Below, piece by piece: positions 2,753-53,209 of a stretch of 64,000 nucleotides of DNA (positions within the stretch are counted from its first letter, which is position 1; each line of letters begins with the position of its first letter). Below the pieces are notes generated by a model. That model was not told where the DNA came from. It searched no databases and saw nothing but the letters and a program-made list of their open reading frames with translations. The position numbers were made by a program, and so were the translations under genes. This DNA comes from Thermosipho africanus Ob7 (lineage in GTDB: Bacteria > Thermotogota > Thermotogae > Thermotogales > Fervidobacteriaceae). The DNA lies in assembly GCF_003351105.1 (NCBI RefSeq), contig NZ_NKRG01000003.1:62001-126000 (forward strand), given 5' to 3'.

Positions 2753-3023
2753 GGTGCCGTGCTAAGCGGGGGGTTGGTGGTCCCCTGTACCCGAAATCCA
2801 CCTAGCGGGGCTTAATTCCCTTGCCAAGGTTTGTGGGGTCTGAAAACGGTCCTCGGTAGGGCGCTGAAGGTTGAGTCCTACGCAACAACTACCTGTGAAC
2901 CGGGTCAGGTCCGGAAGGAAGCAGCCCTAAGCAGGCAAGTGTGTGCCGTAGGGGTGCTCAGCCGGAGCCCGATTCGAGAATACGCTCAGGTCCCGCGTAA
3001 TCGAAGCAAGGGTGCACGGCACC
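2753..3023 (+). ncRNA. ffs: Signal recognition particle RNA, large bacterial type
   Basis: Scaffold RNA of the signal recognition particle, which binds Ffh and directs membrane-protein synthesis. The hallmark domain IV loop is present (GGTCAGGTCCGGAAGGAAGC around 2899-2918). The ends pair perfectly: GGTGCCGTGC at 2753 with GCACGGCACC at 3014-3023. At about 271 nt it is the long form with an Alu domain, as in Firmicutes and Thermotogae, not the 4.5S form. It is far more GC-rich than its surroundings, typical of structural RNA in an AT-rich thermophile. Open reading frames across it are spurious. Confidence 0.97.
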
Positions 3024-49232: not shown

Positions 49233-49262
49233 TTGACCTAATCATAAAATACATGTTATACT
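49233..49262 (+). promoter_or_regulatory. Promoter of the pur operon
   Basis: TTGACC (49233-49238), 18 bp, TATACT (49257-49262). Start near 49269, just before the PyrR-type loop. Confidence 0.7.
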
Positions 49263-49271
49263 TAAGTTGTA

Positions 49272-49303
49272 CCTTTAATTTGGTCCCGTGAGGCCAAAAA
49301 GGA
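49272..49303 (+). promoter_or_regulatory. PyrR-type RNA binding loop in the pur leader
   Basis: CCTTT (49272-49276) pairs with AAAGG (49298-49302) and holds TGGTCCCGTGAGGCCA, which fits the PyrR anti-antiterminator consensus (UCCNGNGAGGY). The lower stem also covers the AAGGAG ribosome site of the leader peptide. PyrR loops normally control pyrimidine genes, so its presence before purE is unexpected. Consensus from memory. Confidence 0.65.
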
Positions 49304-49312
49304 GTGAGAAAA

Positions 49313-49408
49313 ATGAGTAAATTGCGCTCAATACTTTTGTTATTTAAATATTTTAGAAAAATCCCTGCCATCTATGATGGCGGGGATTTTTTGCTTTATA
49401 GGGGGTGA
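49313..49408 (+). CDS. Leader peptide of the pur operon
   Basis: 31-codon reading frame, [14 protein letters not shown] then [17 protein letters not shown], with AAGGAGTG 9 nt before its ATG. It covers both arms of the terminator and ends 4 nt before the purE start. Probably translated for control, not for its product. Confidence 0.55.
49357..49392 (+). terminator. Attenuator terminator before purE
   Basis: AAAAATCCCTGCCATC / GATGGCGGGGATTTTT hairpin with a 3-nt loop and a T-run, entirely inside the leader peptide frame. Confidence 0.9.
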
Positions 49409-49412
49409 TGAG

Positions 49413-49865
49413 GTGATAAGTATTATTGCAGGCAGCAAAAGTGATTCAAACATAGTAGAAAAAGTAGAAAAAGTCCTAGAAGAATTTTCAGTACCATATG
49501 AAACAAAATATCTTTCAGCACACAGAACACCAGATTTGTTGGATGAATACATTCAAAGCTGCGAAAAGAAAGGTACCAAAGTATTTATTGCAATCGCAGG
49601 TGGAGCAGCTCATCTTCCAGGGGTAATTGCTTCAAAAACATTAAAACCAGTCATTGGGGTACCTGTAAAATCTAACGACTTAGGGGGATTAGATTCTTTA
49701 TTATCTATTGTTCAAATGCCAAATGACATTCCAGTTGCTACCGTGGGGATCGATAGGGGGAAAAATGCCGCATTACTTGCAATTGAAATACTTGCGTTAA
49801 GTGATGAAAGTTTATCAAAAAAACTAAAAGATTACCGCTCAAAGCTTGTGGGGAAGTATCTTTAA
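49413..49865 (+). CDS. purE: N5-carboxyaminoimidazole ribonucleotide mutase
   Basis: Converts N5-CAIR to CAIR in purine synthesis. [17 protein letters not shown], and [12 protein letters not shown] are the PurE marks. 150 aa from GTG 49413, 7 nt after GGGGG. An ATG at 49374 in frame would start in the terminator and is rejected. First gene of purE-C-S-Q-L; a purK partner is not seen. Confidence 0.95.
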
Positions 49866-49879
49866 GGGGGGATGTATTT

Positions 49880-50566
49880 ATGGAAGGAAAAACAAAGATT
49901 GTTGAAAATTTTGGGGATTACGTTATTTTAAATTTTAAAGATGATATCACTGCCGGGGATGGGGAAAAACATAACGTTTTAGAAGGGAAAGGTGCTATTT
50001 GCGCAGAAATTACCGCAATTTCAATGAAATATTTAAACTCAATGGGGATATATACACAATTTTTAGATTTCATTTCACCTAACAAAATAAAAGCAGTATC
50101 ATTAAAAATGTTACCACTTGAAGTTGTAGTAAGGTTAAAAAAAGCGGGATCTTTTATAAGAAGATACGGGGGTAATGAGGGAGAAGAATTTAAAGAACCT
50201 CTAGTTGAATTTTTTATAAAAGATGATGAAAGACATGATCCTATGGTATGTAAAAACCATCTTGTATTATTTGAAATCTGTAATGAAAAACAAGCAGAAG
50301 AAATAGAAAAAAGTGCTAAAAAAACAGCAATTGAACTTAAAAACTTTTTTGAAAAACTTGGATTTGATCTATGGGATATGAAGTTTGAATATGGTATTGA
50401 CAATGAAGGAAAAGTCTGTTTAGGTGATGAAATTTCACCTGATACTCTGAGACTTAGAAAAAAAGATGGTATATTTGATAAGGATGTATATAGAAAAGAT
50501 TTAGGAGATCCACTTGAAAAATATAGGGAGGTTCTCTCAGCATGCAGAAGTTTAAATTTGTTATAG
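49880..50566 (+). CDS. purC: SAICAR synthetase
   Basis: Joins CAIR and aspartate. EGKTKIVENFGDYVILNFKD at the start, MLPLEVVVR, GDEISPDTLRL. 228 aa, normal. ATG after GGGGGGATG. Overlaps purS by 25 bp. Confidence 0.95.
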   Translation: MEGKTKIVENFGDYVILNFKDDITAGDGEKHNVLEGKGAICAEITAISMKYLNSMGIYTQFLDFISPNKIKAVSLKMLPLEVVVRLKKAGSFIRRYGGNEGEEFKEPLVEFFIKDDERHDPMVCKNHLVLFEICNEKQAEEIEKSAKKTAIELKNFFEKLGFDLWDMKFEYGIDNEGKVCLGDEISPDTLRLRKKDGIFDKDVYRKDLGDPLEKYREVLSACRSLNLL

Positions 50567-50790
50567 ACATTCAATACAAAAGCAACGTCAGAGATCCAAG
50601 AGGAGAAACTATTGCAAGAGTTTTAAGAGAAGAAGGTAACATACCAATAGAAAGCATACGAATTGGTAAATCCATACATGGGGAAGTTCAAGCTGAAAGC
50701 AAAGAACAAGCAGAAAAATTAGTTATAAAAGCTTGTGAGGAATTACTGGTTAACCCTGTTACAGAGGAGTTTAAGGTGGAGATAAAATGA
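50542..50790 (+). CDS. purS: FGAM synthetase subunit PurS
   Basis: 82-aa structural subunit that bridges PurQ and PurL. KFVIDIQYKSNVRDPRGETI is the PurS head. ATG after GGGAGG, inside purC. Overlaps purQ by 4 bp. Confidence 0.95.
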   Translation: MQKFKFVIDIQYKSNVRDPRGETIARVLREEGNIPIESIRIGKSIHGEVQAESKEQAEKLVIKACEELLVNPVTEEFKVEIK

Positions 50791-51419
50791 AAGCTGGAGT
50801 TATAGTATACCCAGGTTCAAATTGCGATCGAGATGCATTTTATGCATTAAAACTTTCAGGTTTTAAACCATATTTTGTTTCCACAAAGGACAATCTAGAT
50901 GATTTTGAGCTTGTAATTCTTCCTGGAGGATTTTCATACGGTGACTATCTAAGACCTGGTGCTGTATCAGCAAGAGAATCATCTAATGTAAAAAAATTTG
51001 CAGAAAATGGCGGACTCGTACTTGGAATTTGCAATGGATTTCAAATACTTGTAGAAATGGGACTCCTTCCAGGTGGATTACTTCAAAATAAAAACGGAAA
51101 ATTTATTTGTGAAACTGTTGAACTTGAAGTTGTTAATAACGAAACACCTTTTACATTAATGTATAAAAAAGGAGAGGTAATAAAATTACCAATTGCTCAT
51201 GGCTTTGGAAGATATGTTATAGATAAGCAACCAAATGTTGTATTCAAATACAAAGAAGATGTAAATGGTTCCGATCAAAACATAGCAGGAATAATAAATG
51301 GAAATATTTTAGGAATGATGCCACATCCAGAAAGAGCCGTTGAAAAAATAATGGGGAGTGACGATGGGATAAAACTTTTTAAATCACTTTATGAATACAT
51401 AAGAGGTGGTAAAAAATGA
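50787..51419 (+). CDS. purQ: FGAM synthetase glutaminase subunit PurQ
   Basis: Class I glutamine amidotransferase: GICNGFQILVEMG (Cys), MMPHPERAVE (His-Glu). YPGSNCDRDA at the start is typical PurQ. 210 aa. Overlaps purS and purL by 4 bp each, so all three are made together. Confidence 0.95.
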   Translation: MKAGVIVYPGSNCDRDAFYALKLSGFKPYFVSTKDNLDDFELVILPGGFSYGDYLRPGAVSARESSNVKKFAENGGLVLGICNGFQILVEMGLLPGGLLQNKNGKFICETVELEVVNNETPFTLMYKKGEVIKLPIAHGFGRYVIDKQPNVVFKYKEDVNGSDQNIAGIINGNILGMMPHPERAVEKIMGSDDGIKLFKSLYEYIRGGKK

Positions 51420-53209
51420 AATACTTAGACATACTCGAAGAAAGCCTTGGTAGAAAAGCCACCACAAACGAAATAGAAGCTTTTACAGTAATGTGGAGCG
51501 AACACTGTGGATACTCTCATACCAAAAAGTATATAAAAAGACTTCCACTTGTAAGTGAGGAATCGGGAAACGCAGGTCTTGTACCTCTAAATGATAAGTA
51601 TTATATATCGTTTAAAATTGAAAGTCATAACCATCCAAGCGCAATTGAGCCTTACAACGGAGCTGCAACTGGTGTTGGAGGGATAATAAGAGATATACTT
51701 GCAATGGGAGCAAGGCCTACTGCTATTCTTGATTCTTTACATATGCACAAGATAATAGACGGAATAATTGAAGGAATTGCCGATTATGGAAATTCAATAG
51801 GCGTTCCAACTGTTGGCGGAGAACTAAGAATCAGTGACGCCTATAAATATAATCCACTTGTTAACGTTATGGCAGCAGGTATAGTAAAAAAAGAAAATAT
51901 CATTACTTCTAAAGCAACAAGAAAAGGACAGGTAATTGTAATTTTTGGTGGAGCAACCGGAAGAGATGGAATTCATGGAGCTTCATTTGCTTCAGAAGAC
52001 CTTACGGGTGAAAAAGCAAACAAACTTTCTATTCAAGTTGGTGACCCATTTGCAGAAAAACAACTCATTGAAGCATTTTTAAAAATGGTAGAAGAGGGCC
52101 TGGTAGAAGGAGCACAAGATCTTGGTGCTGGGGGTGTTCTTTCTGCTACTTCTGAGCTTGTAGCAAAAGGAGGTTTTGGAGCAATAATAGACCTAGAAAA
52201 TCTTCCACTAAGGGAACCTGACATGAAACCAATAGAAATATTAATAAGTGAAAGCCAGGAAAGAATGGCAGTAATAACATCAAAAGAAAAAGCAGAAAAA
52301 ATATTAAAAATAGCTAAAGATCACTTACTATTTGGAGCAATTGTCGGAGTAGTTACGGATGATGGTATATACCATGTAAGACACAATGGCAAGACCATTT
52401 TGAAAGTTCCTGCAAAATTACTTTCAAATGCTCCTGAAGAAGAAATATATGAATTTGAAAAAGATGCACTCCCAGAAAATATAGATCTTACATTTTCACC
52501 TGTTGATGCAAGCTATGTTTACACTCAATATGATTATATGGTTGGAACTGATACAATAATTAAACCAGGATATGGAGCTGCTCTCATGAGAATAAAAGAT
52601 GAAGATATATACTATTCTCTTCTTACACATAGCAGAGCAGACATTGGAAAAGTTAGTCCATATTGGGGTTCTTTTATTGCTGTTATTGAAAGCGTTAGAA
52701 AAACAATAGCTGTAGGTGCCGAGCCACTTGCAATAACCGATTGTATAAATTATGGAGATCCTGATGAAGAGCCTGAAGGACTAGCTGCTATGATGCAAGG
52801 GTTGAAAGATGCCTGTGAATTTTCTAATATAAAAGTTGCAAGTGGAAATGCTTCACTTTACAATACAAACAACAAAATTCCAATTCCACCAACAATGGTA
52901 ATTGGCATGGTAGGAAAAGCTACCAAGGCATTATTACCTAAATCTGGAGATGTATATATTATTGGTTGGAAAGATTTTGATCTTGAAAGAGAAAAAATTC
53001 TTTGGAATGAAATCAAAAAACAAACATCAAAAGGAAATTTTGTACTTGCTTTATCAAACTACAAAGAAAATCCAACGTACACAAAAAATTTAGGTTTAAA
53101 GATCTCCGATATCCAACACTCTCCAATTCACCAGCTAATTTTAGTAATAGGAAACGATGTAAAGAGTGACTTGCCTATAAAAAAGATAGGAAAAGCTACC
53201 CTACAGTAG
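51416..53209 (+). CDS. purL: FGAM synthetase large subunit PurL
   Basis: Small (597 aa) PurL that works with PurS and PurQ. WSEHCGYSHTK at the N-terminus, ESHNHPSAIEPYNGAATGVGG, GATGRDGIHGASFAS. The last part is somewhat short but intact. Ends the operon before a terminator. Confidence 0.95.
   Translation: MKYLDILEESLGRKATTNEIEAFTVMWSEHCGYSHTKKYIKRLPLVSEESGNAGLVPLNDKYYISFKIESHNHPSAIEPYNGAATGVGGIIRDILAMGARPTAILDSLHMHKIIDGIIEGIADYGNSIGVPTVGGELRISDAYKYNPLVNVMAAGIVKKENIITSKATRKGQVIVIFGGATGRDGIHGASFASEDLTGEKANKLSIQVGDPFAEKQLIEAFLKMVEEGLVEGAQDLGAGGVLSATSELVAKGGFGAIIDLENLPLREPDMKPIEILISESQERMAVITSKEKAEKILKIAKDHLLFGAIVGVVTDDGIYHVRHNGKTILKVPAKLLSNAPEEEIYEFEKDALPENIDLTFSPVDASYVYTQYDYMVGTDTIIKPGYGAALMRIKDEDIYYSLLTHSRADIGKVSPYWGSFIAVIESVRKTIAVGAEPLAITDCINYGDPDEEPEGLAAMMQGLKDACEFSNIKVASGNASLYNTNNKIPIPPTMVIGMVGKATKALLPKSGDVYIIGWKDFDLEREKILWNEIKKQTSKGNFVLALSNYKENPTYTKNLGLKISDIQHSPIHQLILVIGNDVKSDLPIKKIGKATLQ

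Follow-up and report, generated by a model that had tools for sequence, protein, structure and literature searches.

The purE-purC-purS-purQ-purL operon in the window (the whole 64,000-nucleotide stretch of DNA that was analysed) is probably regulated by a PyrR-controlled, translation-dependent transcription attenuator. Sequence comparison supports the PyrR site and the pyrR gene, the leader frame with its terminator, the missing specific antiterminator and the conservation of this arrangement. We infer that PyrR binds, which effector it carries, which way the control runs and that termination takes place. According to the proposed mechanism, transcription would start a few bases before a hairpin that effector-loaded PyrR would bind and keep closed; judging by other studied PyrRs, the effector would be UMP or UTP. 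The closed hairpin would hide the Shine-Dalgarno (SD) sequence of a short leader frame, no ribosome would follow the RNA polymerase, the terminator would fold and the purine genes would be off. With PyrR unloaded, the hairpin would be weak at growth temperature and a ribosome would initiate on the leader frame; by translating into the terminator stem, or by stopping at it, the ribosome would block its folding and transcription would reach purE. The earlier note had proposed that closing the hairpin stops leader translation, lets the terminator act and shuts purE, and the comparison with relatives supports this attenuation reading. In those relatives, the element also appears to regulate pyrC operons, where the frame begins within the PyrR stem, and a uracil permease gene, without a leader peptide.

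Table 1. Coordinates of the purE leader elements and of the operon's genes in the window.
Feature	Position	Strand	Basis or detail
Promoter-like TTGACC-18-TATACT	49233-49262	+	Consensus scan only: 10/12 matches; 4 sites found versus 2.2 expected
Predicted PyrR-binding hairpin (anti-SD stem)	49272-49302	+	Loop consensus TCCCGTGAGG at 49284-49293
SD sequence AAGGAG of the leader frame	49299-49304	+	AAGG paired within the hairpin
31-codon leader frame	49313-49408	+	ATG 49313-49315, stop TGA 49406-49408
Intrinsic terminator inside the leader frame	49357-49392	+	-23.6 kcal/mol at 37 °C
Likely SD sequence of purE, AGGGGG	49400-49405	+	Read from sequence
purE (AIR carboxylase), first gene of the operon	49413-49865	+	Pfam AIRC PF00731, 205.6 bits
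purC	49880-50566	+	Named from sequence and matching gene order in relatives
purS	50542-50790	+	Named from sequence and matching gene order in relatives
purQ	50787-51419	+	Named from sequence and matching gene order in relatives
purL	51416-53209	+	Named from sequence and matching gene order in relatives

The predicted hairpin (CCTTT-AAT-TTGGTC-CCGTGA-GGCCAA-AAAGG) begins ten bases past the promoter-like boxes by a base-by-base re-reading, and the comparison of leaders places boxes resembling TTGAC and TATACT at the equivalent position in three relatives (G012, G013 and G014). The Rfam PyrR model RF00515 matches positions 49268-49396 with 62 bits (curated cut-off 54), the hairpin forming the 5′ part of the match and the terminator being included; with a pyrR gene also present in the genome, the PyrR-type stem reported earlier before purE is confirmed. 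RF00515 elements usually control pyrimidine synthesis genes; in the window, the element precedes purE. The statement that the 3′ arm covers AAGGAG holds for the paired AAGG and not for the final AG, which lies just outside the stem. The leader ATG is eight bases past AAGGAG, and the terminator starts 44 nt past this ATG, with its stem-loop (49357-49391) and U run (49387-49392) wholly within the leader frame. The re-derived coordinates agree with the earlier claim that the 31-codon frame spans the whole terminator and ends 4 nt before purE, whose GTG is at 49413. Elsewhere in the window, positions 2757-3019 hold a bacterial large signal recognition particle RNA (RF01854, 177.7 bits).

The window genome (G000) encodes one PyrR (G000:C2:114190-114705; 228.6 bits versus a cut-off of 138, with equivalog-level NCBIfam matches), whose alignment with solved PyrR structures covers almost the whole protein; the pyrR gene is not adjacent to pyr or pur genes. 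The purE leader is this genome's sole RF00515 match above the cut-off, and such matches occur as well in G012, G013 and G014, which together with G000 represent the window genus (g1). Below the cut-off in the window genome, the match at C1:283854-283934 is real and is the hairpin of the uracil permease gene; those at L003, L052 and L054 looked like chance matches to terminators. The only two PyrR hairpins in the window genus are those before purE and before the uracil permease gene, and in the window genome no PyrR loop was found near its own pyrBI-type fusion or before its own pyrC-type gene. We built a hairpin model (R1) and ran it on 103 Thermotogota genomes, calling a match strong when it was full-length with E < 1e-6. 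Strong hairpins occur in 31 of the 103 genomes, and PyrR is encoded in 31/31 of these versus 11/72 of the others (Fisher P 2e-17, with relatedness ignored). Two near-complete genomes from the same family as the window (G018 and G019) have neither PyrR nor the hairpin. R1 matches with E > 1e-6 outside the groups named here were, among those inspected, in coding sequence or without the loop. The 11 genomes that have PyrR and no strong R1 hairpin are G022, G023, G031-G036, G039, G041 and G073, where the targets of PyrR may carry another form of the hairpin.

Across these genomes, the element takes three forms. Form I is found in most hairpin-bearing genomes: the 3′ arm of the hairpin is the SD sequence of an NCS2 permease gene, nearest to uracil permeases, and there is no leader peptide. 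In most genomes of g2 and both genomes of g3 (other genera of the same family), the permease gene is followed by purK-purE-purC-purS-purQ-purL, and in family f2 it is followed by a purH-like gene; these permease-headed purine loci are L070-L074 and L077-L079 (g2, g3) and L114-L123 (f2). Because a uracil permease gene with a PyrR hairpin heads purine genes in g2, g3 and f2, the link between pyrimidines and purines predates the window genus.

In form II, the 3′ arm is the SD sequence of a short frame before purE, an arrangement present in six genomes, namely the four of g1 and two of g2 (G006 and G007). The SD sequence pairs with the stem in all of them, the start codon lies 7-9 nt past it in 6/6 leaders, and the terminator starts 43-48 nt past the start codon in 5/6, with terminator sequences that vary among species. 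The frames have 31, 31, 29 and 21 codons in g1, 13 in G006 and 67 in G007. They cross the terminator in G000, G013, G014 and G007, the stop codon lies in its 3′ arm in G012, and the G006 frame stops 4 nt before the terminator stem. The relatives have not lost the frame while keeping the terminator; it reaches or crosses the terminator in 6/6 purE leaders, despite the turnover of both terminators and peptides. In G007 (L076:2175-2816), the purE frame is also open for ~60 codons upstream of its usual start, after the terminator-crossing leader frame.

Form III surfaced in a search aimed at something else. It precedes the pyrC-led operon in nine genomes of g2 and g3 (L126-L133 and L151, upstream of pyrC), and its hairpin, of type TGGTTAATTTGGTCCAGCGAGGCCAAAACC, includes the beginning of a 68-97-codon frame (MVNLVQRGQN...) that crosses a terminator and stops close to the pyrC start or overlaps it, with an SD sequence just upstream of the frame start in most cases. 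At the five loci tried, the Rfam PyrR model gave no match at E 0.01. The logic is the same as in form II with another geometry, and form III is the strongest support that sequence comparison lends to the interpretation of a PyrR-gated leader frame.

The openness of the leader frames was tested by shuffling the spacer with its dinucleotides kept, together with a random frame shift, while the terminator was left intact. Taken alone, the window leader is not significant, as shuffles are open to the stem end with P 0.16. For a frame to stay open up to at most 6 nt from the stem, the chance probability per leader is 0.15-0.41 in form II and 0.01-0.36 in form III. By this measure, all five form II lineages are open (joint P ~0.001, of moderate significance only), as are all seven form III lineages (joint P ~3e-10), where the joint P is the product of per-lineage values with close pairs counted once, and its assumption of independence overstates the result somewhat. 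The amino acids of the leader peptide are not conserved among purE leaders. The third-base variation in the peptide that the earlier note had proposed to look for did not appear: substitution counts between close pairs show no bias and no excess of silent changes (codon positions 3, 1, 2 for G000/G013). Selection, if any, consequently concerns the frame rather than the peptide, and the sequence of the peptide does not seem to matter to the mechanism. The AAGG in the 3′ arm is also carried by the PyrR hairpins of four Bacillota controls (two leaders from Bacillus velezensis, one from Lactobacillus kefiranofaciens and one from Paenibacillus cellulosilyticus), so what sets the purE leaders apart is not the AAGG itself but the extra AG and a start codon 7-9 nt farther on. 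An SD-preceded frame just past the hairpin, in the style of the purE leaders, is absent from all four controls.

The same controls bear on classical Bacillus-type attenuation, in which a default antiterminator would overlap the hairpin and the terminator, and PyrR would shift the RNA to the hairpin plus terminator without any ribosome. We took the part of each leader between GAGG and the apex of the terminator and compared its stability with that of shuffles, using folding and duplex energies. No antiterminator stands out in the six purE leaders (z 0.1, 0.9, -1.6, -0.8, 0.6 and 0.3) or in the pyr leaders (z 0.6 to -1.6), whereas the four Bacillota leaders gave z -2.4, -2.5, -2.6 and -3.7 by the same procedure. 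The middle part of the RF00515 alignment is also mostly unpaired in the window sequence. Against these two results stand the alignment of RF00515 to the entire element, terminator included, and the presence of PyrR in the genome; on balance, we consider the Bacillus-type explanation improbable. Because the full hairpin and the terminator coexist in the minimum-energy folds of 5/6 purE leaders, hairpin formation by itself would not switch the terminator. In g1, the hairpin retains -1.3 to -2.2 kcal/mol at 65-70 °C and the terminators keep -8 to -12; a hairpin this weak would be easily opened when no protein holds it.

A second alternative is a purely translational, mycobacteria-like regulation, in which PyrR would occlude the leader SD sequence and lower purE expression through translational coupling, with the terminator acting as a constant partial stop. 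The plain SD occlusion of form I is consistent with it, and so is the geometry of coupling into purE suggested in the earlier note, which stands for G000 and G013 (4 nt from the leader stop to purE) and fails for G014 (13 nt) and G012 (stop inside the terminator). However, this geometry is lost in G014, G012, G006 and G007 while the leader frame and the terminator are kept, and purE carries a strong SD sequence of its own, which makes a purely translational control unlikely.

The leader could also be an attenuator of the leader-peptide kind, pyrBI-like or other, that responds on its own to translation or nucleotide supply, its PyrR hairpin being a relic of an upstream uracil permease gene. We judge this very improbable: the hairpin and PyrR loop were kept in four g1 species while the spacer and terminator turned over, the presence of the hairpin tracks that of PyrR, and the SD sequence of the frame sits in the stem. 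These observations outweigh the frame's passage across the terminator to end just before the gene, as in the E. coli pyrL/pyrBI leader, the occurrence of the hairpin before uraA-purK-purE in other genera, and the leader frame and terminator, without a PyrR loop, that precede g1's own pyrC. The latter leaders are present in 4/4 g1 genomes (L153-L156) and consist of a GGGGGG run and a 16-18-codon frame followed by pyrC, the frame ending right at the terminator base; in G000, the locus is L155, upstream of the pyrC-type gene at C1:73930-74997 on the minus strand. They are possible PyrR-independent leader-peptide attenuators. On the minus strand at L094 (G000:C1:216000-226000), we also observed a carbamoyltransferase-family gene, amidohydrolase-like genes and a dihydroorotate or dihydropyrimidine dehydrogenase-like gene, all named by eye, which possibly serve purine or pyrimidine breakdown.

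The PyrR-gated, translation-dependent attenuator relies on the ribosome arriving in time. In E. coli, ribosomes that stop a few bases from a terminator, or that translate through it late in a gene, suppress termination, and terminators lying within 100 nt of a frame's start frequently evade the ribosome unless the polymerase pauses (PMC4824070). Because terminators this early can escape, most form II leaders, with their distance of ~44 nt, pose a real difficulty for this reading; form III, where the terminator lies 145-185 nt from the frame start, does not.

For the window genus as a whole, we regard as evenly balanced the proposition that its PyrR has been redeployed from pyrimidine synthesis, which it no longer serves, to purine synthesis and uracil uptake, that purE is controlled through a sequence-indifferent leader frame translated through the terminator, and that pyrimidine status throttles purine synthesis. 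A single RNA element would then tie pyrimidine sensing to purine synthesis, and why pyrimidines should repress purine synthesis is not obvious in homeostatic terms. The three forms suggest a path from direct SD occlusion, as at the uracil permease gene, to attenuation.

Among the closest known systems is the pyr cluster of Thermus ZO5, for which Van de Casteele et al. in 1997 (J Bacteriol) reportedly described PyrR and a terminator-containing leader without an antiterminator, and proposed that a translating ribosome blocks the terminator hairpin. The two systems share an antiterminator-free leader whose PyrR site would gate a frame extending as far as the terminator; the Thermus target is pyrR-pyrB-pyrC, whereas the target in these Thermotogota is a purine operon. 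In Mycobacterium smegmatis, the PyrR hairpin reportedly covers a ribosome-binding site in a leader without a terminator (Fields and Switzer 2007). Here too the hairpin covers the transcript's first ribosome-binding site, and form I looks alike; in contrast to that terminator-free leader, a terminator (49357-49392) lies inside the leader frame. The earlier note's comparison with translational control in mycobacteria is fair, and the model reported for Thermus ZO5 is closer. PyrR-dependent translational repression in M. smegmatis is known, as cited in PMC13328217. Bacillus-type PyrR attenuators (RF00515) have the same PyrR loop, stem and downstream terminator, but use a competing antiterminator where the present leaders have a leader frame.

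In E. coli, the pyrL leader frame of pyrBI runs across the terminator and stops shortly ahead of the gene. As proposed for the leaders described here, that terminator within a leader frame is suppressed by a close ribosome (PMC4824070); coupling is set there by UTP-sensitive polymerase pausing, whereas here PyrR would decide whether translation starts. The B12 riboswitch of M. tuberculosis ppe2 controls a translated upstream frame that the downstream gene requires (PMC11260477). It is likewise a metabolite switch on a translated upstream frame with a dependent downstream gene, but it is a riboswitch rather than a protein, and its downstream expression arises mainly by termination-reinitiation (PMC11260477). 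A literature search, with most subscription journals outside its scope, found no report that PyrR controls a purine operon or any Thermotogota gene. Consequently, while Bacillus PyrR attenuation, PyrR repression in M. smegmatis and the ribosome-suppressed terminators in the pyrBI leader frame are already known, the phylum, the purine-operon target, the two geometries and the comparative support are new. One family of bacteria provides a natural series of leaders, before pur and pyr operons alike, in which a PyrR-gated ribosome seems to stand in for the antiterminator, and through which the proposal reported for Thermus becomes testable by comparison.
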